In this document: piece after piece, positions 314 to 38,917 of the stretch
How positions within the stretch are numbered: the stretch's first letter is position 1
Layout: the number at the start of each line of letters is the position of its first letter
IMG/VR virus record: IMGVR_UViG_3300009551_000032
Coordinates: 1-38,917 of that record
Length of the DNA stretch: 38,917 nt
Source: a virus
Strand: one strand, 5' to 3'
Notes under the pieces: model-generated
Database searches by the model: none
Seen by the model: only the letters and a program-made list of their open reading frames with translations
What the model was told of the DNA's origin: nothing
Program-made: the position numbers and the translations under genes

Positions 314-2356
314 GTGGGTTCGTACCAACAAGGCTCTTACGCTATTAATTCGGGCGGTTACATAGATCCATCTGATACTGGGGCTAAAGACCTTCAAGGC
401 ATGATGGATTATTTCTACGATGCTAACTACATCGGAAACGGTGCATTATGGATGCAAGGTTCAATCGATAAACGATTCAAAGTCGGCGATCAAGCGCTCT
501 ATAGTTCTATGTACGGCCCTAACTACGGCCAAGCTCAGAAGTTCTTCTTCAATTTGATTCGTCGTCATTTAAACATGATTGGTGGTTTTCAAAGACGTAA
601 TCGTAAGAGTACATTGACCATGCCCATTCATCCTAATGATGATCAGTTAGCAGATGATTACAATGGTGTTCTTAGATACTGCGAAGACCGTGATGGCTTT
701 CAAGAGTATCTTTCTCAAGCATTCGAGGGTTCATGCGATACTGGTATGACACTATTACATTTGTATCCAGATTTTGCTCAAGATCCTATCTCAGGGGATT
801 TATATACAGATTGCGTATCATATAATAATTTTTTGATAGATCAGTATTTCAGAAAACAAGACCTTAGTGACTGCAATGGTATATGGCGTCGTAGATGGAC
901 TAGCAAGCAAGGCGCAAAACTTTTATTGCCTGGTAGAGCCGATGAAATAGATAGAATGAAACCAGGTGGCATGAAAGACGGACGCTTCCCAGTTCAAGCA
1001 GAACTTCAGAATATGCCTATGAACGGTTTGTTTACTTACGATGAATTCTATTACAGAACTACTCGTGAAGCAACAATCATATTAGATCCAAAGACAGGCG
1101 AAGCAGCTGAGTGGGAACAGGAAGAAGATGATCCAGAAGATATGCTGGAGCAGACATTGCGTCAGCAACCTTGGCTAAAGGTTAAAAAGACACAAGTTCC
1201 AACAGTAAAACTAGTTCTTAGCTTAGGTGGTAAAGTGTTTTATCACGGTGCGAACCTGCTGGGAATAGACGAATACCCTTTTGTTCCTTCAATCTGTTAT
1301 TATGAGCCTGACGTAACATCCTACGCATGGCGCGTGCAAGGAGTGGTCCGTAACCTACGTGACAGCCAGTTTTTGTACAACATGAGAAAGGTTATTGAGC
1401 TACAGATACTACAGAGCCAGATTAACGCAGGATGGATATTTCCAGTGGATGCAGTTACAGATGTTAAAGCATTCAGACAATCCTCTGGAGGTGATGGATT
1501 TTTAATTCCTCTTAAAGCGGGACACTTGCCTAATGAAATCCAAAGAATCGAACCTTCAGCAATCCCACAGTCATTGCTTGAACTCTCCGCTTCCCTTGCA
1601 GAGGACATCACTAAGATCTCAGGCGTCAACGAAGAACTATTGGGCGCAGCGACAGACGACAAATCTGGCATATTATCTATGCTACGCCAGGGCGCTGGAC
1701 TTACAACGCTCCAAGGTATGTTCGATAAGCTGGACTATACACAGCGGCTATATGGTAAAATTCGGCTTGCGGCAATACGTAAGAACTTCTCTAAAGGTAA
1801 AGTTCGTAATATTCTCGGACGTGATGCCGATCCTAGGTTCTTCTCATCAGCCTCACAAAAATACAGCATTGCAGTTGAAGAAGGAAACTATAGCACCACA
1901 CAAAGACAAACAGAACTTCAGCAGTTGTTACACTTCAGAGAGATTGGTATGCCAATACCTGATGAATCTATTATGCAGGCTGCATTTATTACTAATAAGA
2001 AAGAAATTATTGAACAGATGCAGCAGATTAGCCAGCAGCAATCACAGCAACAGCAAGCTGAAATGCAGCAACAACAGCAGCAAGACAATAGCAAGATGAT
2101 GGTTGATTACGCCAAGGCTAAATCAGAACTTGCGCGTGAGAAAGAGTTAATGGCTTCAGCAGCCGAAAAGATTGCTCGTATTGAAGATTTAAGAGCTGAC
2201 GCAGAGCATAAACGAACAGAAGCAGATCTCAATTTAGTTAAGATGATGATTGAGTTAGAAGATATGGACTTGGCTAATTTCAGGTCGTCACTAGAGCTTG
2301 CAGAAGCAATTAAAATGCAAAATCAATCCACTCAACCAGTGGAATCAGCCTTATAG
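314..2356 (+). CDS. Portal protein, P22-like
   Basis: 680 residues, starting at GTG with GGTGA just upstream. Size, position straight after terL and the N-terminal portal body fit the P22 gp1-type podovirus portal, the dodecameric ring through which DNA is packaged and ejected. The C-terminal 110 or so residues hold a glutamine-rich tract (about 567-595) followed by a long charged helix rich in Lys, Glu and Ala, probably the crown/barrel helix lying along the DNA channel. The next gene follows 9 bp later with a strong SD at the portal stop codon. Confidence 0.85.
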   Translation: MGSYQQGSYAINSGGYIDPSDTGAKDLQGMMDYFYDANYIGNGALWMQGSIDKRFKVGDQALYSSMYGPNYGQAQKFFFNLIRRHLNMIGGFQRRNRKSTLTMPIHPNDDQLADDYNGVLRYCEDRDGFQEYLSQAFEGSCDTGMTLLHLYPDFAQDPISGDLYTDCVSYNNFLIDQYFRKQDLSDCNGIWRRRWTSKQGAKLLLPGRADEIDRMKPGGMKDGRFPVQAELQNMPMNGLFTYDEFYYRTTREATIILDPKTGEAAEWEQEEDDPEDMLEQTLRQQPWLKVKKTQVPTVKLVLSLGGKVFYHGANLLGIDEYPFVPSICYYEPDVTSYAWRVQGVVRNLRDSQFLYNMRKVIELQILQSQINAGWIFPVDAVTDVKAFRQSSGGDGFLIPLKAGHLPNEIQRIEPSAIPQSLLELSASLAEDITKISGVNEELLGAATDDKSGILSMLRQGAGLTTLQGMFDKLDYTQRLYGKIRLAAIRKNFSKGKVRNILGRDADPRFFSSASQKYSIAVEEGNYSTTQRQTELQQLLHFREIGMPIPDESIMQAAFITNKKEIIEQMQQISQQQSQQQQAEMQQQQQQDNSKMMVDYAKAKSELAREKELMASAAEKIARIEDLRADAEHKRTEADLNLVKMMIELEDMDLANFRSSLELAEAIKMQNQSTQPVESAL

Positions 2357-2905: not shown

Positions 2906-3129
2906 TGAGTAATTTAGCATATCCACTTGAAATAGAAATGTTACAAGAATTGCAATTTGCTATCTCGAATTGCAATTATGCTCAAGGTTTAGTACTTCAA
3001 AACATAAAAATAGAAGATTATGATAAAGTTTTAATCCTTAAAATCTTACAAAAAGAAATGCAACAACAAAGCATTAATTTTTTAAATCAAATAATGACAC
3101 TAAAGAGATTGATTAAAGAAAAACAATGA
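2905..3129 (+). CDS. Small helical protein, 74 aa, unknown
   Basis: I chose ATG 2905, which overlaps the preceding TGA, rather than the in-frame TTG 3 bases earlier. The product is rich in Leu, Ile, Gln and Asn and likely helical throughout. Codon use is markedly more AT-rich than in the flanking portal and capsid genes, as expected of a late-acquired accessory gene. The stop overlaps the next ATG (ATGA). Function unknown. Confidence 0.7.
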   Translation: MSNLAYPLEIEMLQELQFAISNCNYAQGLVLQNIKIEDYDKVLILKILQKEMQQQSINFLNQIMTLKRLIKEKQ

Positions 3130-3764
3130 CTAAACGTAAGACGGGTGGTGAGCTTTCCAAAAAAGCTCTGAGCGACACAACGAAATACGATGCGCTCGAA
3201 GTTGGTCATGCAATGGCCGATGATATTGGTGTTCATTTGCGCCAAGCGATTGAAAACTACAGGAACATCATCGATGAACCTGAATTCTGTGTGGTCATGG
3301 TCATAGCAAAAGACCCCTTGATCCCAAATCTACTAAGAAGAAAGTTCTATTGTTGGCCCTATCTTCCAAAGCCTAGACCTAATCAGTCTGTGTTCCTTTA
3401 CAACAAGGGATTAGACAAGATTACTAAGCGTCTTTGGGTTTTGCCATCAGATATGGTTATGGCTGAGTTGGCTGGCACTAATGTTATCGTACACAAAAGA
3501 TATGAGACAATGCAGGCGTGGTCAGTTGCTTTCTTCAAAGGGACTTTCTGGGAATTCATACGTCATCAGCATGACATTGATATGCTTTCAGAACACGAAT
3601 ACTTCAAACTACACAGAGAGGAATTGTTGAAGGCGGGATGTAAGATTCCTGGCCCCAATGACGCCGATCCCTTTGATTTTAGTAAGGTCGCGATTGAGAA
3701 GATCGTAGACACGAAGACAACCCTCGCGGAAGAGGATAGTTTGAGTCCTCTTATTCAAACCTAA
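3126..3764 (+). CDS. Head-operon protein, 212 aa, unknown
   Basis: ATG overlaps the preceding stop. This is a mixed alpha/beta protein with a well-defined hydrophobic core (EFCVVMVIA, LWVLPSDMVMAEL, WSVAFFKGTFWEF) and an acidic C-terminal tail. It lies between portal and scaffold, where podoviruses carry head-assembly genes, but I do not recognise the family. Its last 156 bases overlap an antisense gene (3609-3893) in the same codon register, and the overlap is richer in G and C at codon ends than the flanks. Confidence 0.8.
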   Translation: MTKRKTGGELSKKALSDTTKYDALEVGHAMADDIGVHLRQAIENYRNIIDEPEFCVVMVIAKDPLIPNLLRRKFYCWPYLPKPRPNQSVFLYNKGLDKITKRLWVLPSDMVMAELAGTNVIVHKRYETMQAWSVAFFKGTFWEFIRHQHDIDMLSEHEYFKLHREELLKAGCKIPGPNDADPFDFSKVAIEKIVDTKTTLAEEDSLSPLIQT

Positions 3765-3893
3765 AACACTAATAGGAGCGTCAGCAGCCATATAAGACAT
3801 GAGATCTCTATAGGTTGATAAGCTTTCAACAAGCTTTAACCTGATTGCTTTTGTCTCTAATTGTTTGATGTCGTCACTTTCAATAATTTCCAT
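3609..3893 (-). CDS. RNA polymerase alpha-CTD-like HhH protein, antisense in head operon
   Basis: 94 residues on the minus strand, starting at ATG 3893 with AAGG five bases upstream. Residues 40-92 match the fold pattern of the bacterial RNA polymerase alpha C-terminal domain: a short helix (SVLGLNKRTQTILFREG), a linker (CLRVYDLL) and a helix-hairpin-helix (HhH) with a GIG hairpin and Ala (L70, I73, G75, G77, A81, L84). The first 39 residues form a charged helix. In hosts this domain binds UP-element DNA and activators, so a free-standing copy could act on transcription. It fills the 142-bp gap before the scaffold gene, and codon use there is like the rest of the genome. An in-frame start further upstream (4151) gives a Ser-rich shadow peptide and was rejected. 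Confidence 0.65.
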   Translation of the reverse strand: MEIIESDDIKQLETKAIRLKLVESLSTYRDLMSYMAADAPISVLGLNKRTQTILFREGCLRVYDLLNRDLTKIKGIGVIGARNLTSRLQQFLSV

Positions 3894-15961: not shown

Positions 15962-15992
15962 TCGTAAGACACAAACAAAATATGTTTTACGA
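15962..15992 (+). promoter_or_regulatory. Hairpin abutting the SD of the first fibre gene
   Basis: A nine-pair stem (15962-15970 with 15984-15992, one G-U) and a 13-base loop end at the GAGG ribosome site (15991-15994) of the gene starting at 16003. The remaining gap (15881-15961) shows no ORF. The stem could slow ribosome entry or protect the 5' end. Confidence 0.4.
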
Positions 15993-16002
15993 GGACGTTT
16001 TT

Positions 16003-16689
16003 ATGCCTTATCCTTACGGCTCCTTCCCAGCAGACGCAGCAGGCGTCGACCCAATAGCCCACCCACCAGTTCAGCCAGCTTTTAGAGCTCCTACTACACA
16101 AGATATTTATCCTCAAGGCACTAACTGGTTTGATAATTCTCAAAGCCCTCCAGTTCAATATACAACCGTTGGTGGGGGTGTGTGGAACACAAGGGGAACT
16201 TTAACCTCTTTAATAGTTAATGGCCCAACTACTTTTACTGGTACTTCAAATATTAATACAACTGGTGCGAGTATTACCAATATTGGTACAGGTGGTACTG
16301 GAGCTGTTAATATTGGGAATGCGACCGGAAATACTGCTATAACGGGTAATGAGACAGTAACAGGAGACATTACCACATCCGGCGGTAACGTTATTATCAA
16401 CGGTGCAGCTAAACAACTACGTGTTCATGGTGGTGCAGTAACAGACTTTATAGGTACAGCAACATTAACAGCTGGCACCGTAACTATTGCAAACACAAAC
16501 ATTGCAGCTACAGACCGTATATTTGTTCAAAGAACAGCAGCTAACGCTTCTACGACCCTAGGTGAAATACTTTATACGATATCTGCTGGAGCTAGCTTTA
16601 CAGTTACTTCAGTTATATTAGGAACTCCAGGATCGACTCAAACAGGTGATCTTAGCTCGTTTACTTATCACATAATTAGACAAGTTTAA
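16003..16689 (+). CDS. Tail fibre protein, 228 aa
   Basis: ATG 16003 was chosen because GAGG sits upstream; ATG 15982 lies in a hairpin loop. The Pro-rich N-terminus (GVDPIAHPPVQPAFRAPTTQ, with IYPQGTNWFDNS after it) probably attaches to the tail. Residues about 70-150 are a Thr/Gly/Asn-rich repeat region (TGTSNINTTGASITNIGTGG) of the stacked-beta type found in fibre shafts, and the end is a small beta domain. First of a run of receptor-recognition genes. Confidence 0.65.
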   Translation: MPYPYGSFPADAAGVDPIAHPPVQPAFRAPTTQDIYPQGTNWFDNSQSPPVQYTTVGGGVWNTRGTLTSLIVNGPTTFTGTSNINTTGASITNIGTGGTGAVNIGNATGNTAITGNETVTGDITTSGGNVIINGAAKQLRVHGGAVTDFIGTATLTAGTVTIANTNIAATDRIFVQRTAANASTTLGEILYTISAGASFTVTSVILGTPGSTQTGDLSSFTYHIIRQV

Positions 16690-27270: not shown

Positions 27271-27465
27271 ATGGACTTAAGAAGATACCTTTTTGAAAAT
27301 CGCTTAACGCGTAAAGAATTTGCAGAAAGAATTGATTACACTAGTAATTATGTAGTCATGATATGCAAGGGTAAAAAACCAGGCCCTAAAGCAGCCAAAG
27401 CAATTGAGAAAGCTACTAATGGAATAGTTAAATATAACAAAAACGAAGAGGTTCTAGAAGCATGA
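27271..27465 (+). CDS. Cro/C1-type HTH regulator, 64 aa
   Basis: ATG 27271 chosen because AAGGAGG lies just upstream; an in-frame TTG 18 bases earlier has no SD. Residues about 1-50 form a lambda-Cro/Xre helix-turn-helix (LRRYLFENRLTRKEFAERID, then YTSNYVVMICKGKKPGPKAA). It is the first gene of the rightward operon and probably controls the divergent region next to it. No CI-sized partner repressor and no integrase are seen, so this looks like early/late timing control, not lysogeny. Overlaps the next start (ATGA). Confidence 0.8.
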   Translation: MDLRRYLFENRLTRKEFAERIDYTSNYVVMICKGKKPGPKAAKAIEKATNGIVKYNKNEEVLEA

Positions 27466-27926
27466 AGAAAGAACTTTTTTATAAAAATGTAATTGAAAAC
27501 CTGCAAAACAAATTTGGGCAAGTTAGTGTTGCTTTGATTCAAAGAAGATGCCATGTATCTTTTGAAGAGGCAGTGCAGTTATATGATAAATTCGTTCTGC
27601 CTCCAAGAATAATGATTTCTAACTTCCCTTTGATCCCTAAAAAAGGAGAATTACTGCAAAAATATCATGGCAATAGTGTTTCAATCCCATTTTTACAGAA
27701 AAGATTAGAGCTAAACTCGGAACAAACAAAAAAGCTTTTAGAAGAGTGGATGAAAGCAGATGAGTTAGAACAAACAAGAAAAAAATTTGATGAAATCCGG
27801 CTTTATGTTAAACCTCCTAAAACTCAAAAACATGACAAACCTTTATGTGAAATCATGCGTGAAAAAACGATAGAAAGACATATCAAATACCTTGAATCTC
27901 AAGGTTATAAGGTGGAAAAAAAATGA
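27462..27926 (+). CDS. Tandem FtsK-gamma-like winged-helix protein, 154 aa
   Basis: ATG overlaps the Cro-like stop. Two copies of a pattern typical of the DNA-binding gamma domain of FtsK are visible: SVALIQRRCHVSFEEAVQLY (residues about 22-41) and SIPFLQKRLELNSEQTKKLL (about 71-90), to be compared with the FtsK consensus in which S..LLQRR...Y..A..L is conserved. In FtsK this winged helix reads KOPS sequences and contacts XerD. A free-standing tandem copy without the motor is unusual. The basic tail may add DNA affinity. It is the second of three adjacent putative DNA-binding genes. Confidence 0.6.
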   Translation: MKKELFYKNVIENLQNKFGQVSVALIQRRCHVSFEEAVQLYDKFVLPPRIMISNFPLIPKKGELLQKYHGNSVSIPFLQKRLELNSEQTKKLLEEWMKADELEQTRKKFDEIRLYVKPPKTQKHDKPLCEIMREKTIERHIKYLESQGYKVEKK

Positions 27927-28303
27927 ATAGAATTAAAACAAATGAAATTTATGATAACCCTTATCTTACCATGAAAATTTCTACCCTTTTGTGTCAAAAA
28001 GATTTTATTGATGAATGGTCTGAAGTGACGGCTGAAGAAGTTAGACAATTCAGAGGTGCAGGGCCAAAAACATTAAGAGAACTGAGAAAATTTTTGGCAA
28101 TGTATGGCATTTGCTTAAAAGGTGACATCATTTTTGACAAAGACTCCGATAGAAATCTGTTAATTGATGTTCCAAATCACATTAAAGAGATGGAGAATTT
28201 GTTGAGAGATGTGGATAGAAGGCTTAGATGGCTAACGGGTAAGCTTGAAGAATTGCATTGCAATATGATTCCAAACAATAAATATCACTATATTGACAAG
28301 TAA
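27923..28303 (+). CDS. Alpha-CTD-like HhH protein with coiled-coil tail, 126 aa
   Basis: ATG overlaps the preceding stop. Residues about 15-66 follow the RNA polymerase alpha-CTD pattern: LTMKISTLLCQKDFIDEWSEV, then a helix-hairpin-helix (TAEEVRQFRGAGPKTLRELR) and KFLAMYGICLKGD. The C-terminal 35 residues are a coiled coil (HIKEMENLLRDVDRRLRWL). The same architecture occurs in the gene at 32349. Likely binds DNA or host RNA polymerase partners to steer early transcription; that role is inferred. Confidence 0.65.
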   Translation: MNRIKTNEIYDNPYLTMKISTLLCQKDFIDEWSEVTAEEVRQFRGAGPKTLRELRKFLAMYGICLKGDIIFDKDSDRNLLIDVPNHIKEMENLLRDVDRRLRWLTGKLEELHCNMIPNNKYHYIDK

Positions 28304-28305
28304 TA

Positions 28306-28554
28306 ATGAATAAACAACAACAGAAAATAAAAAAATGCTCTAATTGTGATACACAAAGTTGGCAAGATGAAGCTATTGAGATACATGGAATTTGCAAAGA
28401 ATGTTTTTATAATAATTTACCGAAAATAGATGCTAAAGGTGAAGTTGTTTATCCTAGATTAACTAAAGAATCTATAGTCAAATGGAAGGATTTTTGCCAA
28501 AAAATTTTTTGTCCTAAAATGACAAGTAAATCAGGTCAAAATGAAATTCATTGA
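28306..28554 (+). CDS. Small zinc-ribbon-like protein, 82 aa
   Basis: ATG three bases after the previous stop. Two Cys pairs, CSNC (residues 11-14) and CKEC (30-33), could hold a zinc ion. The C-terminal half is basic with two further Cys. No family recognised. The end overlaps a 29-aa membrane peptide gene. Confidence 0.65.
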   Translation: MNKQQQKIKKCSNCDTQSWQDEAIEIHGICKECFYNNLPKIDAKGEVVYPRLTKESIVKWKDFCQKIFCPKMTSKSGQNEIH

Positions 28555-28630
28555 ATTCTTAGACGCACACTGGTTTGGCATTGGGTTTTTTATTGTTCTT
28601 AGCATTTTTATACTGAAAACGCCCAAATGA
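28541..28630 (+). CDS. Single-TM membrane peptide, 29 aa
   Basis: ATG 28541 with AGG at proper spacing, overlapping the previous gene. Almost the whole peptide is one membrane helix (residues about 9-25, HWFGIGFFIVLSIFILK). Peptides of this kind occur in phage early regions; toxicity or envelope effects are possible but unproven. Shortness makes the call uncertain. Confidence 0.45.
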   Translation: MKFIEFLDAHWFGIGFFIVLSIFILKTPK

Positions 28631-28761
28631 CAAGTATTTTAACAAATAATTTGGATAAATAGTGGTAAATTCAAATTTCACTCTTGTGATGCATATTGGG
28701 ATTAGTGAAATAAAGAATTAAAACAACTTAACGGCAATTATCAGACGTTGAGTAGATAAAT

Positions 28762-28977
28762 ATGAATAAACCTTTATGGCAAGAACACGTATGTTTTGGG
28801 GCTAATAATGCTGATACATGGCTAACACCTTGTGGAACAGAATTTTGGTTGTTTTTTAGAGGTGGAAATGAACCAGATAGGTGCACTTGGATTGAATTTT
28901 GCCCATATTGTGGTTTGAGACCTCCCGATTTAAAAGATGATTGGAATTGTAGAAAGAAAAAAGAAGACGAGAAGTAA
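28762..28977 (+). CDS. Small Cys/Trp-rich protein, 71 aa
   Basis: ATG after a 131-bp gap that shows no ORF or clear promoter. The protein has several Cys, including CPYCG near residue 49, and many Trp, giving a probable zinc-binding mini-domain. The C-terminal end is a charged KKKEDEK run. Unknown function; neighbour of another Cys-rich small protein. Confidence 0.65.
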   Translation: MNKPLWQEHVCFGANNADTWLTPCGTEFWLFFRGGNEPDRCTWIEFCPYCGLRPPDLKDDWNCRKKKEDEK

Positions 28978-28979
28978 GC

Positions 28980-29228
28980 ATGGAAAAAATAGCTTGTGAA
29001 TGCGGAGAAATACATTCTAATACCTGTGGATATCACGGAGTTTTATACAAATACGATGAAGTAATTGAAAATGATCCCATATACCCTTTATGCGTGTTTG
29101 AATGCGGAAATTGCGGAAATATAATGATCGATAATCCAAAAAACCCTAGAGAAATGAAATCATATAAGCCAACTAGCAAGGAATGTAATTATTTGCTGAT
29201 AGAAAAAGAAGAAGAGAACGAAACATGA
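28980..29228 (+). CDS. Small Cys-rich protein, 82 aa
   Basis: ATG three bases after the preceding stop. Cys pattern CECGEIHSNTCGYHG at the start and CGNCGN later suggests a zinc-ribbon fold with His help. Acidic overall. Unknown role. The stop overlaps the next ATG (ATGA). Confidence 0.65.
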   Translation: MEKIACECGEIHSNTCGYHGVLYKYDEVIENDPIYPLCVFECGNCGNIMIDNPKNPREMKSYKPTSKECNYLLIEKEEENET

Positions 29229-29383
29229 AAGAAGACAAAATGAAATTTGAAGAATTGGCACGCATTAGAAATAAAGAAGAATTGGACAAAGGTATTGTAT
29301 CTGAAGAAGAATATTTAGAAATGGAAAGAATTTTGGATGTTCTTAAACAATCAAACCCTGGAACCTATGCGCCATTAAATTGA
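29225..29383 (+). CDS. Small charged helical protein, 52 aa
   Basis: ATG overlaps the stop of the Cys-rich gene. The product is nearly all charged helix with an SHOCT-like feel in the middle (ELARIRNKEELDKGIVSEEE, then YLEMERIL), in which a short helical hairpin follows LxxxGIISEEEY. SHOCT domains are short oligomerisation modules. The assignment is tentative. Confidence 0.55.
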   Translation: MKEDKMKFEELARIRNKEELDKGIVSEEEYLEMERILDVLKQSNPGTYAPLN

Positions 29384-29427
29384 TGCACTAGAATAGATAA
29401 GTTTAAACAAGAAGACAGGAAGAAATC

Positions 29428-29661
29428 ATGGAATGGATTTCTGTAAAAGATAGATTACCTACAGAGCAAGATTTATATTTATGTTGTGGAAGAACAATTG
29501 ATTGGAATATGGGAAAAATACCCGACATAGCCTTTACAGCGTTTTTTTATTTACCATGTAATATATATAAATATTCAAGATGGTGTGAAAGAACTAGAAG
29601 TTATGAAGATGTAACAATTGAATATTGGATGCCTATACCAGAGCTACCAAAAGAGGATTAA
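29428..29661 (+). CDS. DUF551-family protein, 77 aa
   Basis: ATG with AGGAAG. It opens with WISVKDRLPTEQ and ends with IEYWMPIPELP, the two signature ends of the DUF551 domain common in tailed phages and prophages; the middle carries the expected aromatic strand residues. The molecular function of this family is not known. The stop overlaps the next ATG. Confidence 0.75.
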   Translation: MEWISVKDRLPTEQDLYLCCGRTIDWNMGKIPDIAFTAFFYLPCNIYKYSRWCERTRSYEDVTIEYWMPIPELPKED

Positions 29662-29864
29662 TGGAAGAAAAAAATTACAACAGATTGCCGCCTATAAAGG
29701 ATGCTGTCTCAAAAATACTTCGAAATCACAACCTAGAAAATGGTTCAATTACACTTTATTATCAAAGTAGTCCAGGCTTGCCCAAATTTAAGATCACTAT
29801 TGAAATGGACGAGCCTGAATTTTATATAGACTCTAGAGGTGTTAAATGGGTGAGGGCTAAATAA
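29661..29864 (+). CDS. Small protein, 67 aa, unknown
   Basis: ATG 29661 overlaps the DUF551 stop (TAATG). A mixed alpha/beta small domain (ITLYYQSSPGLPKFKITIEM). No motif recognised. It overlaps the next start by one base, so it is probably translated by coupling. Confidence 0.6.
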   Translation: MEEKNYNRLPPIKDAVSKILRNHNLENGSITLYYQSSPGLPKFKITIEMDEPEFYIDSRGVKWVRAK

Positions 29865-30223
29865 TGAGATCAAAAATGAAAAAGGAATATGAAGATTTTC
29901 TAATTGAAAGAGGATTTGGAGAAACCATCTTGAAAAAAAATGCTAGGATTTTATGGCAATGCGAAAATGGTCAAATGATTAATCTAATTGTTGGTGAATT
30001 TACAACGCCGGGAGAACACCATCATCTTTATGATATATATTCTTTTGATATAGGAAATTGTCTATCAGACTGGGAAGATTGGACTCTTTCAGACGTTTTA
30101 ATAAAAATATTTGTTTCATATATAGTTCCTGTTGATCTTAGAATCAAAATACTTTTTCAATTAACAAAAATTAAAGAATTTAGAGACGATTTAGCATTTT
30201 GGATCTGGAGAAATGCACATTAA
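29864..30223 (+). CDS. Protein of 119 aa, unknown
   Basis: ATG within TAATG, with GAGG nine bases upstream. Alpha/beta composition with two hydrophobic stretches (LIKIFVSYIVPVDLRIKILF) that look like buried strands or helices and not TM. His pair in the middle (GEHHHLYDIY). No family known to me. Confidence 0.65.
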   Translation: MRSKMKKEYEDFLIERGFGETILKKNARILWQCENGQMINLIVGEFTTPGEHHHLYDIYSFDIGNCLSDWEDWTLSDVLIKIFVSYIVPVDLRIKILFQLTKIKEFRDDLAFWIWRNAH

Positions 30224-30234
30224 AGAGGTGAACT

Positions 30235-30585
30235 ATGGATGCTAAAGGGCCTTGCGCATTTCTATTTGCTAATGGAAATGGTGCATATTTTAACGATGAA
30301 AACCACCAGATGACAAATCTACAAGCATTAGGATGGCAGGGATTACATGAGTTTAGAGAAAAGTATCCTAATGCACCCGTAAGCATACAATATTCTGAGC
30401 CTATACCGCCCGAAGTCATGCCTAATGTATTAAAGCAAATCGTGGATCCTAGGCCTTATGGTTGGGTACATGAAAGTATTGATGAGCTAACTGAAACACC
30501 CACTTATCCCGATCCAGTATGTAAAACCGTTTTAAGAGAAAAAAAAGGGCTAAAAAAGTCCTCTAAAACTGAGAATAAAAAATGA
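30235..30585 (+). CDS. Protein of 116 aa, unknown
   Basis: ATG with AGAGG. The N-terminal part is a compact domain (CAFLFANGNGAYFNDEN); the middle is Pro-rich (EPIPPEVMPNVLKQIVDPRP); the end is a basic tail (KKGLKKSSKTENKK) that might bind nucleic acid. Overlaps the next start by ATGA. Confidence 0.65.
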   Translation: MDAKGPCAFLFANGNGAYFNDENHQMTNLQALGWQGLHEFREKYPNAPVSIQYSEPIPPEVMPNVLKQIVDPRPYGWVHESIDELTETPTYPDPVCKTVLREKKGLKKSSKTENKK

Positions 30586-30728
30586 CAGACGGCAATTTAT
30601 TTGGGTTATTAATTGCTTTATTGTGTTTATACACTTATTTAATAATATACAAAGAAACAACAACAAAAAACAATATATACGTCATTGTGGTAGCTATTAT
30701 CGCAGCGATATATTATCTAACACGCTAA
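30582..30728 (+). CDS. Small two-TM protein, 48 aa, holin candidate
   Basis: ATG overlaps the preceding stop. Two hydrophobic helices (about 5-19, NLFGLLIALLCLYTYLI; 30-45, IYVIVVAIIAAIYYL) with a short Lys/Thr-rich loop. This is holin-like in size and topology. No endolysin is encoded next to it, but the following gene is exported. Confidence 0.55.
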   Translation: MTDGNLFGLLIALLCLYTYLIIYKETTTKNNIYVIVVAIIAAIYYLTR

Positions 30729-30735
30729 GGAAAAA

Positions 30736-31503
30736 ATGAAACGAATAATGTCTTTAATGCTTTTATCGGGAACGATGTTTTTAAGTGGGTATTCATCTGA
30801 ATTTGAAACCTATCCAGAAGATGGTGAATATTATGTTGGCTCTGACTGGGAGGCTAAAAAAGAATTAATATTTAAGGCAGAAAAACATCGAAAAAAGGCT
30901 GTCGAAAAAGCAAAACACATGGAGAATTATTTTTCTTATTTTCCTGATTTGCGTGACAATCAACACATGAAAGAGCTTATTACCGGAATCATTACTTGTA
31001 AGCTTATCGAATCCCCCCGTAACAGAATTTTAGCTGTAGGAGTAGCTCTTATAGCAAGCCTTGCAAATGACTCATATGACAAATATGTCTATGCGCGAAG
31101 AACTTTTTGTGAGATCACACACCACTTTGAAATGCATGAATTTTATTCAGCTATAGCCCTAACAATATCAGACGATGATTTAAAACCACTTGACTATTAC
31201 GAGGGGTATTTTTATGACGCTGTAGACTATCTTACCTTAGCGGATATATTGTGCATATGTATAGATGATGATAGTGCATATTATGATTGTACAGACTGGA
31301 TTTGTAATCACCGAACATATGTTATTAATGCATTTGAAGATAAGAAATTAAAACATAGAGTAAGCAATAGCACAAACACGCTTATCAATAAAGTATACGA
31401 CAAGATAGGCCGATATTACAATTCTGACCATAAATCTATTCTATATAATCTAGATTGTTCGTTCAATGCCTTATATAAAGCCGAAAAAGGATGGGAGATT
31501 TAA
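30736..31503 (+). CDS. Exported protein, 255 aa, unknown
   Basis: ATG with AAGGA. Residues 1-20 form a signal peptide (KRIMSLMLLSGTMFLSG). The cleavage area reads LSGY where a lipoprotein would read LSGC, so a lost lipobox Cys is possible. The mature protein is acidic, Tyr- and Asp-rich and mostly helical, with several Cys that could form disulfides outside the cytoplasm. No enzyme motif is recognised. Coming after a two-TM gene, it could act in the envelope (lysis or exclusion). Overlaps the next gene. Confidence 0.6.
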   Translation: MKRIMSLMLLSGTMFLSGYSSEFETYPEDGEYYVGSDWEAKKELIFKAEKHRKKAVEKAKHMENYFSYFPDLRDNQHMKELITGIITCKLIESPRNRILAVGVALIASLANDSYDKYVYARRTFCEITHHFEMHEFYSAIALTISDDDLKPLDYYEGYFYDAVDYLTLADILCICIDDDSAYYDCTDWICNHRTYVINAFEDKKLKHRVSNSTNTLINKVYDKIGRYYNSDHKSILYNLDCSFNALYKAEKGWEI

Positions 31504-31895
31504 TGTCTGAAGTCATATTTGATTGCACAAACCCAAAACATTTATATAAGGGTGTTTTATTTGCTGAAGTAGATAATGGAGAGGTAAAAAAAGAAATGAA
31601 TAGTCCTTTTCCAACTCCGAAAGATTATGTTGCGGGAGTTATGGCAATTATCCATGTAGACGAAAACGGTATTTGGCATTTAACAGCCAGAATAAAATTC
31701 CCATCAGGAAATAAACAAGTAATTAGATTACAAGAAAATCCTCCATGCAATGAAACGAAATTACTTCAAAAGTTTTATAAAATACCTTTAGTTAATAAAA
31801 TATGGACGCCTAACCCATCAGGAGATTCGGACGGAATATTAAATATTATAAAAGATCTAGACATGATTGAATCAATTCAAATAGAGGAAACATGA
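31503..31895 (+). CDS. Protein of 130 aa, unknown
   Basis: ATG 31503 was chosen: it overlaps the preceding TAA and has GGGAG five bases upstream. A small beta-rich domain (VAGVMAIIHVDENGIWHLTA, RIKFPSGNKQVIRLQENPP). No recognised motif. The stop overlaps the next ATG (ATGA). Confidence 0.65.
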   Translation: MSEVIFDCTNPKHLYKGVLFAEVDNGEVKKEMNSPFPTPKDYVAGVMAIIHVDENGIWHLTARIKFPSGNKQVIRLQENPPCNETKLLQKFYKIPLVNKIWTPNPSGDSDGILNIIKDLDMIESIQIEET

Positions 31896-32017
31896 CTATC
31901 ATTGGAATTTTTTTAGCATTAGCAATGGTTGCTGGCCCAAGCGCACCAGATAAAAGCTATCCACCTGAAGGCCCAAAAGGCGCAAATGGATGCGAGGAGC
32001 CACCAAAACAAAAATGA
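31892..32017 (+). CDS. Short exported or membrane peptide, 41 aa
   Basis: ATG overlaps the previous stop, with AGAGG upstream. Residues 2-16 are a hydrophobic signal-like segment ending in MVAGPSAPD; the rest is Pro/Gly/Lys-rich and probably unfolded. Unknown. Overlaps the next start. Confidence 0.5.
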   Translation: MTIIGIFLALAMVAGPSAPDKSYPPEGPKGANGCEEPPKQK

Positions 32018-32352
32018 ATGAAGAAGACAAATTAGTACACGACAGAATTAATAAAATACTTCCTCGACCGAAAGATAAGATTCTTTTGATAGAAACTCTT
32101 TTGGGGTGTGGTTATGCATTGACGGATTTTATCAGAAAAAACCACGATTTTATCACTCCTGATGCACAAACGGCATATCATATAGGAATTGTTATTGCAA
32201 ATCTTTTTGCTTTTGTAAATCCAATCCATTTGGATGGGAAAGCTATATTTGAAATTAAAGACTTTTCGAAAGAAGAAGACTTGGATAAAAAGTTAGCTTT
32301 TACCGTGAAACATCTTTATGACTACTGTAAAGAAAGGAAGCTACTAGAGTGA
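32014..32352 (+). CDS. Protein of 112 aa, unknown
   Basis: ATG 32014 overlaps the preceding stop (ATGA); an in-frame ATG at 31990 is the alternative and would add 8 residues. Mostly helical with one hydrophobic stretch (AYHIGIVIANLFAFVNPIHL). No motif recognised. Its stop overlaps the GTG start of the alpha-CTD-like gene. Confidence 0.6.
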   Translation: MNEEDKLVHDRINKILPRPKDKILLIETLLGCGYALTDFIRKNHDFITPDAQTAYHIGIVIANLFAFVNPIHLDGKAIFEIKDFSKEEDLDKKLAFTVKHLYDYCKERKLLE

Positions 32353-32657
32353 AAGAACGCCTTAAAATAGAACAAGCAGCTCTTCCTTTAAGGGCAATTC
32401 GAGTTTTACAGAACAACTTTTGCATAGAATATCTTGATCAGTGTGAACGTTTCACAGAAGGCGAACTGCTTAACGCGCACTCTTTTGGGCTACATTGTCT
32501 TAATGCCCTCAAGAGTGAGTTGCATAAGCATGGTTTTCACCTCAAGTCAACAGTTGAAGATGCTGCCAAAGAAATCGATCGTGAAATTACCTTTATTAAA
32601 GGCCGATTAACCGCGTTGCAATTAAAATTAAACAGATTAAAATATGCCAAAGCGTAA
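32349..32657 (+). CDS. Alpha-CTD-like HhH protein with coiled-coil tail, 102 aa
   Basis: GTG start, AGGAAG eight bases upstream, coupled to the preceding stop. Residues about 12-65 follow the alpha-CTD pattern: LPLRAIRVLQNNFCIEYLDQ, FTEGELLNAHSFGLHCLNAL, then KSELHKHGFHL. The tail (VEDAAKEIDREITFIKGRL) is a coiled coil as in the 27923 protein, so the two look like paralogues. The HhH Gly is less ideal here (HSFG). Sits two genes before the putative replication control region. Confidence 0.6.
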   Translation: MKERLKIEQAALPLRAIRVLQNNFCIEYLDQCERFTEGELLNAHSFGLHCLNALKSELHKHGFHLKSTVEDAAKEIDREITFIKGRLTALQLKLNRLKYAKA

Positions 32658-32981: not shown

Positions 32982-33019
32982 AAAAAAAAAGAAAGACGCT
33001 CAGTTAAGAACGTCTTTCT
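32982..33019 (-). terminator. Leftward rho-independent terminator
   Basis: On the minus strand, a 9-bp stem (33019-33011 with 32998-32990) is followed by nine Ts (32990-32982, the first overlapping the stem foot). On the plus strand the same stem lacks a T-run. No minus-strand gene of normal size precedes it, which is why a small RNA is proposed. Confidence 0.75.
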
Positions 33020-33118
33020 CTTGCAAGCATTCCTCAATTAAGGATATGCTTAAAAATTCTGATATGGAAAAAGTTTAAGTTTCGCGGCCCTCTTTTTCCT
33101 TATCTAACTATTAACGCG

Positions 33119-33157
33119 CTCGAAAGAGACTGAATGAATCTCGAAAGAGACTTAATG
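33119..33157. repeat. Two 18-bp direct repeats, 21-bp period (iteron-like)
   Basis: CTCGAAAGAGACTGAATG (33119-33136) and CTCGAAAGAGACTTAATG (33140-33157) match at 17 of 18 bases and repeat every 21 bp, two helical turns. They lie about 100 bp upstream of the HTH initiator gene in AT-rich DNA, where initiator iterons are expected. Only two copies are seen. Confidence 0.6.
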
Positions 33158-33224: not shown

Positions 33225-33253
33225 TAACAAAATTGCTGCGAAAAGGGAACATC

Positions 33254-33883
33254 ATGATCATTTCTGAAGCTATTTCAAATATCAGAATCTACTGGCACTT
33301 AATCACAAAGAAATTTCAAAGCATTTTTCTTTACCTTCAATGGTTTGATAAAACCTATATCCACGCATTCCCTGCATTAGATACGATTGCGGAAGCTTGC
33401 AAATGTTCAAGACGAACAGTAACGCGCGCCATTGCATTTTTTACGCAAAATAATTGGATTACAAAGATCAAGAGACCATATCAAAGCAATATTTATCAGG
33501 TTCATCCAGACCTTTTAAACTTTGATTGTTTTGATAGCAATAATTTTAAAAAAGAGATTGTCCCGCAAGTTGGCACTCCGAATGTCCAACAGATTGACCC
33601 TGTATTAGAGAGTTCTAATCAATCTATTGAAAGTACTTGTACGGAAGACGTGCCAGATATAGGATCTAAAAATTTAGCAAAGCCTAAAATTCATCCCTGC
33701 TTAGCTAGATTAAAGCTTACTGATCAGGAAAAAGCTTCCTTAACTGCAAAATTTGCTGAATATCATCTAGCCAATGCAATTGATGATGCTAAATGGTATG
33801 AAAAACAGGGCAAAAAAATCTTAAATGTTTTAGGTTTCATATATAGCCAAGCAAATAAATCCTTGAAAAGATTGCGAGCGTAA
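33254..33883 (+). CDS. HTH (HTH_36-like) replication initiator, putative
   Basis: 209 residues from ATG 33254, chosen for GGGA six bases upstream over an in-frame TTG at 33233. Residues about 35-85 form a winged helix of the HTH_36 type (FPALDTIAEACKCSRRTVTR, AIAFFTQNNWITKIKR, then a wing ending in NIYQVH) common in plasmid and phage initiators. The C-terminal part (from about 150) is a separate helical domain (LARLKLTDQEKASLTAKFAE) perhaps for helicase or primosome contact. Iteron-like repeats and a predicted antisense RNA lie directly upstream. Replication role is inferred; transcriptional regulation is the alternative. Confidence 0.65.
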   Translation: MIISEAISNIRIYWHLITKKFQSIFLYLQWFDKTYIHAFPALDTIAEACKCSRRTVTRAIAFFTQNNWITKIKRPYQSNIYQVHPDLLNFDCFDSNNFKKEIVPQVGTPNVQQIDPVLESSNQSIESTCTEDVPDIGSKNLAKPKIHPCLARLKLTDQEKASLTAKFAEYHLANAIDDAKWYEKQGKKILNVLGFIYSQANKSLKRLRA

Positions 33884-37752: not shown

Positions 37753-38917
37753 TCACAAGTCCTAAACAGAATCAATCCTATGCAGAGTCAACTCATCGAT
37801 TTAACATATGGGTTGGAGCTGTCAGATCTGGTAAAACATACTCAAGCATACGCAAATTCTTAAATAGACTTCGTCATGGAGTCCCTGGCGATGCAATGAT
37901 CATTGGGGTCAATCGTGCAACTATTCACCGCAATATACTCACTAGCATGTACCGTATGCTTGGCTTTCCTTGCCCCTCACCCATGTGTAATAAAGTGTCG
38001 ATATATGGTCGTGATCTTTATTTTGTGGGCGCACCTGATGTATCTGCTGTCACTACCATACAGGGATCGACACTAGCTTACGCATTAGTTGATGAAGCAA
38101 CATGCATTCCCGAGCCTTTCTTCCAAATGTTAGAGACTCGTCTATCTGTTCGTGGCGCACAAATGTTTGTTACGTGCAACCCTGAAGGCCCATCACATTG
38201 GCTTAAGAAGAAATACCTCGATCGTTCAGATGTACATGATTTGGTTTCTTGGCAATTCAATCTAGATGATAACCCTACATTAGACGAAGAGTACAAAAAG
38301 GCTATCAAATCCTCTTTTACTGGCGCATTTTACAAACGATATGTCCTAGGCGAATGGGCATTGGCAACCGGAGCTGTATTTGATGCATGGGACGACATAA
38401 ACGTTTATGAAAAAGAATATCCTTCTCCTAACTTTTATTGCGCTGCTTTGGATTATGGAACAATTAACCCAACTGCTTGTCATATTGCAGCAGTCTCTCC
38501 AAGACAATGGCCCCAGATCAGGATAGAAAGAGAGTATTACTTTGACAGTTCTAAGGAAGGAAGGCAAAAGACAGATGCGGAACTTGCTCGCGATATTAAA
38601 CTCTTTATTGGTCATACTCCTATCAATGCATTATATGTTGACCCTGCAGCAGCCTCTCTCAAGCTTGAACTACGCAATCTTGATTTGCCTGTGGTTGACG
38701 CTAACAATGACGTACTTTTTGGAATCAAATTGATGAGTCAATTCATCGCGGGAAAGAACATGTTAGTGCATGGTTCATGTCGCAATCTCATCGAACAAAT
38801 ACAATCCTATGCATGGGATCCAAAAGCGGCAGATAGAGGGGAAGATAAACCCATCAAGATGAATGACCACGCAGTTGACTCTTGCCGTTATCTTTTAGCT
38901 TCGTGTTTCAAAAATGG
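37749..38917 (+). CDS. terL: Terminase large subunit, N-terminal part (continues at 2)
   Basis: ATG overlaps the terS stop. The ATPase half shows Walker A GAVRSGKT (residues 23-30), Walker B YALVDEA (111-117, with D115 and E116) and the coupling motif TCNP (142-145). The nuclease half has ALDYGT (D235) and YVDPAA (D298). The frame runs off the window end inside the 123-base repeat and is completed at 2-238, total 427 residues. It pumps DNA through the portal and cuts the concatemer. Confidence 0.95.
   Translation, partial: MITSPKQNQSYAESTHRFNIWVGAVRSGKTYSSIRKFLNRLRHGVPGDAMIIGVNRATIHRNILTSMYRMLGFPCPSPMCNKVSIYGRDLYFVGAPDVSAVTTIQGSTLAYALVDEATCIPEPFFQMLETRLSVRGAQMFVTCNPEGPSHWLKKKYLDRSDVHDLVSWQFNLDDNPTLDEEYKKAIKSSFTGAFYKRYVLGEWALATGAVFDAWDDINVYEKEYPSPNFYCAALDYGTINPTACHIAAVSPRQWPQIRIEREYYFDSSKEGRQKTDAELARDIKLFIGHTPINALYVDPAAASLKLELRNLDLPVVDANNDVLFGIKLMSQFIAGKNMLVHGSCRNLIEQIQSYAWDPKAADRGEDKPIKMNDHAVDSCRYLLASCFKN
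38795..38917. repeat. Terminal direct repeat, right copy (circular overlap)
   Basis: Identical to bases 1-123. See the left copy. Confidence 0.95.

Follow-up and report, generated by a model that had tools for sequence, protein, structure and literature searches.

Three free-standing proteins with alpha-CTD-like domains in an uncultured phage with a P22-type portal, one of them encoded antisense within the head-gene cluster across its clade

The virus record IMGVR_UViG_3300009551_000032 was analysed along its entire length of 38,917 nucleotides (nt), referred to here as the window. Three of its genes encode small proteins that resemble the C-terminal domain of the RNA polymerase alpha subunit (alpha-CTD), a domain type with a helix-hairpin-helix (HhH) hairpin. 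These genes, together with the coiled coils predicted in two of the products, are located as follows (aa, amino acids; ORF, open reading frame):

3609-3893, minus strand: P0001, 94 aa, alpha-CTD-like; ORF confirmed, with profiles, an AlphaFold model and a structural alignment
27923-28303, plus strand: P0002, 126 aa, alpha-CTD-like domain at about residues 15-67, hairpin FRGAGPKTL
28181-28255, plus strand: C-terminal coiled coil of P0002, residues 87-111, a/d positions IMLVLLL (7/7 hydrophobic), best 25-residue window
32349-32657, plus strand: P0003, 102 aa, GTG start, alpha-CTD-like domain at residues 5-67, with R15 as the equivalent of R265
32568-32642, plus strand: C-terminal coiled coil of P0003, residues 74-98, a/d positions IIILLLL, all hydrophobic

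An alpha-CTD-type pattern in each of these three ORFs had been proposed in the first-pass annotation of the window, and both the ORFs and the pattern have been borne out, with profile matches obtained for all three proteins. A hidden Markov model (HMM) was built from six hand-entered host alpha-CTD sequences, one of them from Caulobacter (9zum), and was run first against 3,966 ORFs from the window and related contigs and later against 7,866. The larger set had P0003 in first place (E=2.4e-6) and P0002 in fourth (E=0.0085), while P0001 reached E=0.057 and the remaining matches down to E=0.1 were members of the P0001 family; in the smaller set the values for P0003 and P0002 were 1.2e-6 and 0.0043, respectively. 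Shuffled sequences matched the real score in 0/5000 cases for P0003, 0/5000 for P0002 and 2/5000 for P0001. Significant matches to alpha-CTD sequence profiles (superfamily PF03118) have been found for the P0001 family and P0003, with P0002 alone reaching only the small-profile values of E=0.0043-0.0085. An alpha-CTD-type domain is accordingly assigned to all three proteins at differing strength, the assignment being weakest for P0002, where it rests on sequence only. The set of host residues that contact DNA (R265, N268, G296, K298, S299) is not retained as such by the three proteins, and no junction to the alpha N-terminal assembly domain is present, the whole proteins comprising 94, 126 and 102 aa.

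The most extensive evidence concerns P0001, which consists of an N-terminal helix (residues 3-36) followed by the alpha-CTD-like domain (about residues 37-90) with the HhH hairpin IKGIG. When a profile of the P0001 family (47 rows) was compared with the PDB, the first 15 rows were alpha-CTDs only (best E=5.3e-5), and alignment of the family with an alpha-CTD profile by hhalign gave 91.6% and E=8e-7. The Pfam alpha-CTD family was matched by three members (best E=1.4e-5), one locus lying just over the cut-off. The AlphaFold model of P0001 (predicted local distance difference test, pLDDT, 86.8) shows the long N-terminal helix and then the alpha-CTD fold. Superposition on alpha-CTD, as expected in the first-pass annotation, was obtained with Foldseek and VIA-align, which placed alpha-CTDs on top with a root-mean-square deviation of 1.1-1.5 A over 54-59 residues in the best rows, TMt values of 0.80-0.82 in the top Foldseek rows and a Z of 9.7. 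Across 125 homologues the hairpin is strongly conserved, with G75 in 124/125, G77 in 112/125 and an arginine at position 80, the place of S299, in 105/125; the family consensus is I-K-G-[IL]-G, after which most members have a basic residue.

P0001 is an antisense gene within the portal-scaffold-capsid cluster, where it is flanked by the following genes:

3126-3764, plus strand: conserved 212-aa protein in the portal/scaffold-like interval; the last 156 nt of its gene overlap the 3' end of P0001
3907-4656, plus strand: scaffold-like gene, divergent from P0001, assigned by position and composition only; homologues exist

The start codons of P0001 and the scaffold-like gene are about 13 nt apart. 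Homologues of the 212-aa protein occur in all sister contigs aligned, and no match to it was found in Pfam, PHROGs or named phages. Relatives of P0001 were detected in 56 viral loci with a six-homologue profile and in 73 with a broader one, amounting after pooling to 125 distinct genes. The overlap with the 3' end of a plus-strand gene is kept in 122 of these, spanning 111-252 nt with a median of 129; for the other three, no such overlapping plus-strand ORF was found. When the best 80 of 231 capsid matches and two contigs of metagenome-assembled genomes (MAGs) were considered, which represent the nearer part of the clade, P0001 was present in 64 of the 64 loci with the clade capsid gene and at least 2.5 kb of upstream sequence, in each case on the minus strand and 0.8-2.9 kb upstream of the capsid gene. 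When genomes were scanned for members of the family by one exact 8-mer only, no match was obtained.

Selection was assessed through the ratio of nonsynonymous to synonymous substitution rates (dN/dS) in close homologue pairs, values for distant pairs being saturated. In 20 close pairs, dN/dS outside the overlap was 0.15 in the P0001 frame, whereas the remaining five gave 0.30-2.15, and within the overlap it was 0.36 in the P0001 frame and 0.31 in the plus-gene frame, both of which are constrained. Y28 and P40, which lie outside the overlap, are kept in 122/125 homologues. P0001 is a real gene under purifying selection and is core in its clade; its occurrence in all related phages open to checking makes it a probable core regulator of the clade, so far unstudied. 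Its position, antisense among the head genes, suggests a separate transcript.

The domain evidence for the other two proteins is uneven. P0003 alone matched alpha-CTD in the PDB with E=9.4e-4 and the RpoA models of NCBIfam with E=3.9e-5, its match to Pfam RNA_pol_A_CTD (E=0.024) being below the cut-off. In a 4.7 Mb Nitrospiraceae MAG the only match to P0003 was a 339-aa unannotated frame (E=0.004) of a length that fits RpoA. P0002 alone gave no alpha-CTD match in Pfam or PDB searches; a two-row profile of P0002 and P0003 matched alpha-CTD in the PDB with E=1.9e-5, compared with 9.4e-4 for P0003 alone, and its first 34 rows were all alpha-CTD. Weak matches to BREX PglW and GreB appeared in the NCBIfam model search, and a match of P0002 to V-antigen (E=0.19) was taken as chance. 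Of the host determinants, P0003 keeps only R265 (R15) and G296, lacking K298 and S299, whereas P0002 keeps G296 (G47) and K298 (K49), has T50 in place of S299, and carries K18 or I19 at the R265 place depending on the alignment. The two-glycine hairpin of HhH motifs is found in P0001 (IKGIG) and P0002 (RGAG), but not in P0003 (SFG), which has the second glycine only.

The coiled coil common to P0002 and P0003, also part of the first-pass annotation, has been substantiated, as the two proteins have the top two heptad scores among the 109 ORFs of the window (matched by 0/1000 shuffles for P0002 and 6/1000 for P0003) and align collinearly over hairpin and coil in BLASTP, with E=0.004 for the pair and 19% identity. 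In the P0002 model a helix spans residues 83-115, its middle blocks reaching a pLDDT of 72-83. The two proteins appear to be diverged paralogues, for which dimers formed through the coil are plausible. The wider proposal, one paralogous, dimer-forming family that could redirect host polymerase at different infection stages, is only partly supported: a paralogous, dimer-forming pair is plausible for P0002 and P0003, but there is no support for including P0001, which has no coiled coil and aligns only by domain type; comparison of the P0001 family with P0002 or P0003 in hhalign gave no meaningful alignment, and there is no sign that P0001 is closer to them than any alpha-CTD is. P0001 belongs to a separate, old, clade-wide lineage.

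The P0002 and P0003 genes, each of which overlaps the stop codon of its upstream neighbour, sit between two recognisable genes:

27271-27465, plus strand: Cro/CI-like helix-turn-helix (HTH) gene that heads the rightward operon containing P0002 and P0003 (PF01381 HTH_3, E=1.2e-5)
33233-33883, plus strand: O-like/DnaD-like replication initiation gene downstream of P0003 (PHROG 391, E=5e-8; HTH_36, E=1.2e-7)

This placement between a Cro-like and an O-like gene suggests early expression of the pair. Searches of viral contigs, sister contigs and named phages, among them 8-mer scans that reach close relatives only, returned no relatives of P0002 or P0003, so that three alpha-CTD-like genes in one genome have been seen only here within the clade. 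When the P0002 hairpin was searched for as a degenerate DNA pattern, ten matches were obtained, none of them related. Two further elements are situated close to the end of this operon: a hairpin at 32987-33022, directly after it, with 15-nt arms that are 87% complementary and terminator-like on the minus strand, and two 18-nt direct repeats at 33119-33157 (CTCGAAAGAGACT[GT]AATG, 21-nt spacing) upstream of the O-like gene, which may represent an operator or iteron.

As regards the genome as a whole, a 123-nt direct repeat at the record ends (1-123 and 38795-38917) makes it probable that the record represents a closed circle or a permuted genome. The portal is of the P22 type (PF16510, E=2.8e-75), as in P22-like podoviruses, and RecE/RecT genes are present. 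No close cultured relative of the phage was found: portal identity to cultured phages is at most about 25%, and the capsid protein had no match among them. Capsid protein matches were found in two MAG contigs, one from a Bacteroidetes bin and one from a Nitrospiraceae bin. None of the proteins scanned was recognised as a phage RNA polymerase, so the phage presumably relies on the host enzyme. In the tail region, a protein with a K1-lyase C-terminal domain (15982-16689; PF24146, E=4e-11) is a possible capsule-directed receptor protein.

When compared to the RpoA alpha-CTD (PF03118; PDB 1doq, 9dvt, 9zum, 3k4g), which is the first PDB match of both the P0001-family profile and the joint P0002 and P0003 profile, the phage proteins share the domain type and the HhH hairpin. 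They differ in being free-standing, in keeping its determinants only partly, and in what they add to it, namely the extra N-terminal helix of P0001 and the C-terminal coiled coil of P0002 and P0003. Alpha-CTD-like domains outside RpoA occur in other phages as well: proteins annotated with, or matched by, an RNA polymerase alpha C-terminal domain come from Bacillus phage Goe8 (210 aa), Microbacterium phage Morrill (gp24), Ruegeria phage V16 (p23), Erythrobacter phage L02 (ORF40; PMC9127768), Mycobacterium phage Mithril and Rhodococcus phage Finch. In each of these phages one such gene was seen, in differing architectures, as opposed to three here; a second, identically annotated listing for Goe8, located towards the opposite end of its record, probably represents a copy in the terminal repeat. 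By tblastn, no sequence relation of P0001, P0002 or P0003 to those annotated proteins was found, and no studies of phage alpha-CTD-like proteins were found in the open-licence literature. In Ruegeria phage V16 the domain starts a 288-aa protein (L110:1432-2298) that has been annotated once as an HTH protein and once as a pyrophosphatase, and whose C-terminal part appears MazG-like by eye.

Two uncultured-phage proteins in BFVD, A0A6J5LGT9 and A0A6J5LGC0, match P0001 structurally (TM 0.92 and 0.66, 39-43% identity) and are very likely members of its family; they have been deposited without function, and their entry names do not refer to an alpha-CTD relation, an antisense position or clade-wide presence. 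The small bacterial protein NF005841/PRK07758 (95 aa, 'hypothetical protein'), presumably alpha-CTD in nature, is likewise short and free-standing and shows a weak match to P0003 in its C-terminal half (E=0.05), far below its cut-off. Free phage alpha-CTD-like proteins are a known kind; what is new is the clade-wide antisense core version and the presence of three in one genome. A separate lead, and no more than that, is an ORF of 75 aa among the tail genes of a sister phage (contig G059, L291:12440-12667, minus strand), which looks alpha-CTD-like (ERSCSGRLLN..IKTIEEARKIT..FLSWRQCG), has no clear relatives and has its score matched by 21/5000 shuffles.

The reading tentatively preferred here, though held at somewhat less than even confidence, is that the three free alpha-CTD-type HhH proteins act on transcription. 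The alpha-CTD version of the HhH fold would have been used three times as a small free-standing protein, most likely contacting DNA near promoters, the host polymerase, or both. P0001 would be the core protein of the clade as a whole, expressed from an antisense transcript of its own among the head genes. With the UP-element arginine kept in P0003 and variable in the P0001 family, P0001 is expected to bind the DNA backbone through its hairpin rather than read UP elements as the host domain does, and the hairpin of P0002 (R-G-A-G-P-K-T) may likewise be of the backbone-binding kind. P0002 and P0003 would be lineage-specific paralogues, probably expressed early, whose coils could pair two alpha-CTD-like domains per dimer and so imitate the paired alpha-CTDs of the polymerase.

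Several observations weigh against this reading. The RAD51 N-terminal HhH domains tie with alpha-CTDs in Z for the P0001 model, so the fold cannot separate the two, although the sequence does; as other HhH domains have this fold too, its presence in the model is by itself no proof of a role in transcription. In the P0001 family the R265 position is mostly V/A/K/T/S, even though G296 is kept in 112/125, and the E261 equivalent is replaced by cysteine in 116/125, which makes host-type UP-element and sigma contacts unlikely. No sigma-70-type promoter for P0001 was recognised in a scan of its vicinity, and the P0002 model from the two-row alignment is poor outside the coil helix (pLDDT 47.2). The main rival is a non-transcriptional role, in which these are general HhH DNA-binding proteins for replication, recombination, packaging or head assembly and the alpha-CTD likeness reflects fold ancestry. 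The tie with RAD51-type domains and the variable UP-element arginine would suit such a role, as would the placement of P0001 among portal, scaffold-like and capsid genes and of the O-like replication gene one gene past P0003. The PDB profiles nevertheless prefer alpha-CTD, in the leading rows for the P0001 family and the P0002 and P0003 pair alike, and P0001 is opposed to the direction of the head operon, which would be unusual for a structural partner. A general HhH role is possible, if rather doubtful.

The domains might instead act as decoys, occupying UP elements, host activators or alpha-CTD partners and turning host promoters off in a dominant-negative style. P0003 is the closest of the three to the host alpha-CTD and keeps R265, the coil could increase avidity, and alpha-CTD or RNA polymerase is a common phage target, ADP-ribosylation by T4 being one such attack. 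Another is the cleavage of alpha by Rac (PMC7552054). Most contact residues are, however, not kept in P0001, K298 and S299 are missing from P0003, and host shutoff would leave unexplained why an antisense gene is found in the head cluster throughout the clade; a decoy function is considered distinctly unlikely. It could also be argued that P0001 is no gene but an open frame that arose by chance antisense to a conserved plus-strand gene, given that antisense frames of conserved genes can mimic homology; one that does so faces the portal gene (1321-1671, minus strand). The low dN/dS and the conserved Y28 and P40 outside the overlap, together with the confident model, make this very unlikely.

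The preferred reading, a role in transcription, can be extended to a broader picture, somewhat unlikely as a whole, in which a large uncultured clade steers its own transcription, that of the host, or both through an antisense core protein of the head operon, with some members adding early, coiled-coil-paired mimics; this would constitute a transcription-takeover system made of several free polymerase-tail domains. The P0001 lineage is the larger finding when set beside the P0002 and P0003 pair. Free alpha-CTD-like phage proteins had been known from scattered annotations, whereas P0001 occurs in every checkable member of its clade, and as 122/125 homologues retain its dual coding with a conserved gene of the head region, its function must matter to the phage. 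P0001 is a good target for understanding what free alpha-CTD-like proteins do, whether they recruit the polymerase, serve as a decoy, replace polymerase contacts or bind DNA in some other capacity, and the presence of three such proteins in one genome makes a direct comparison possible.

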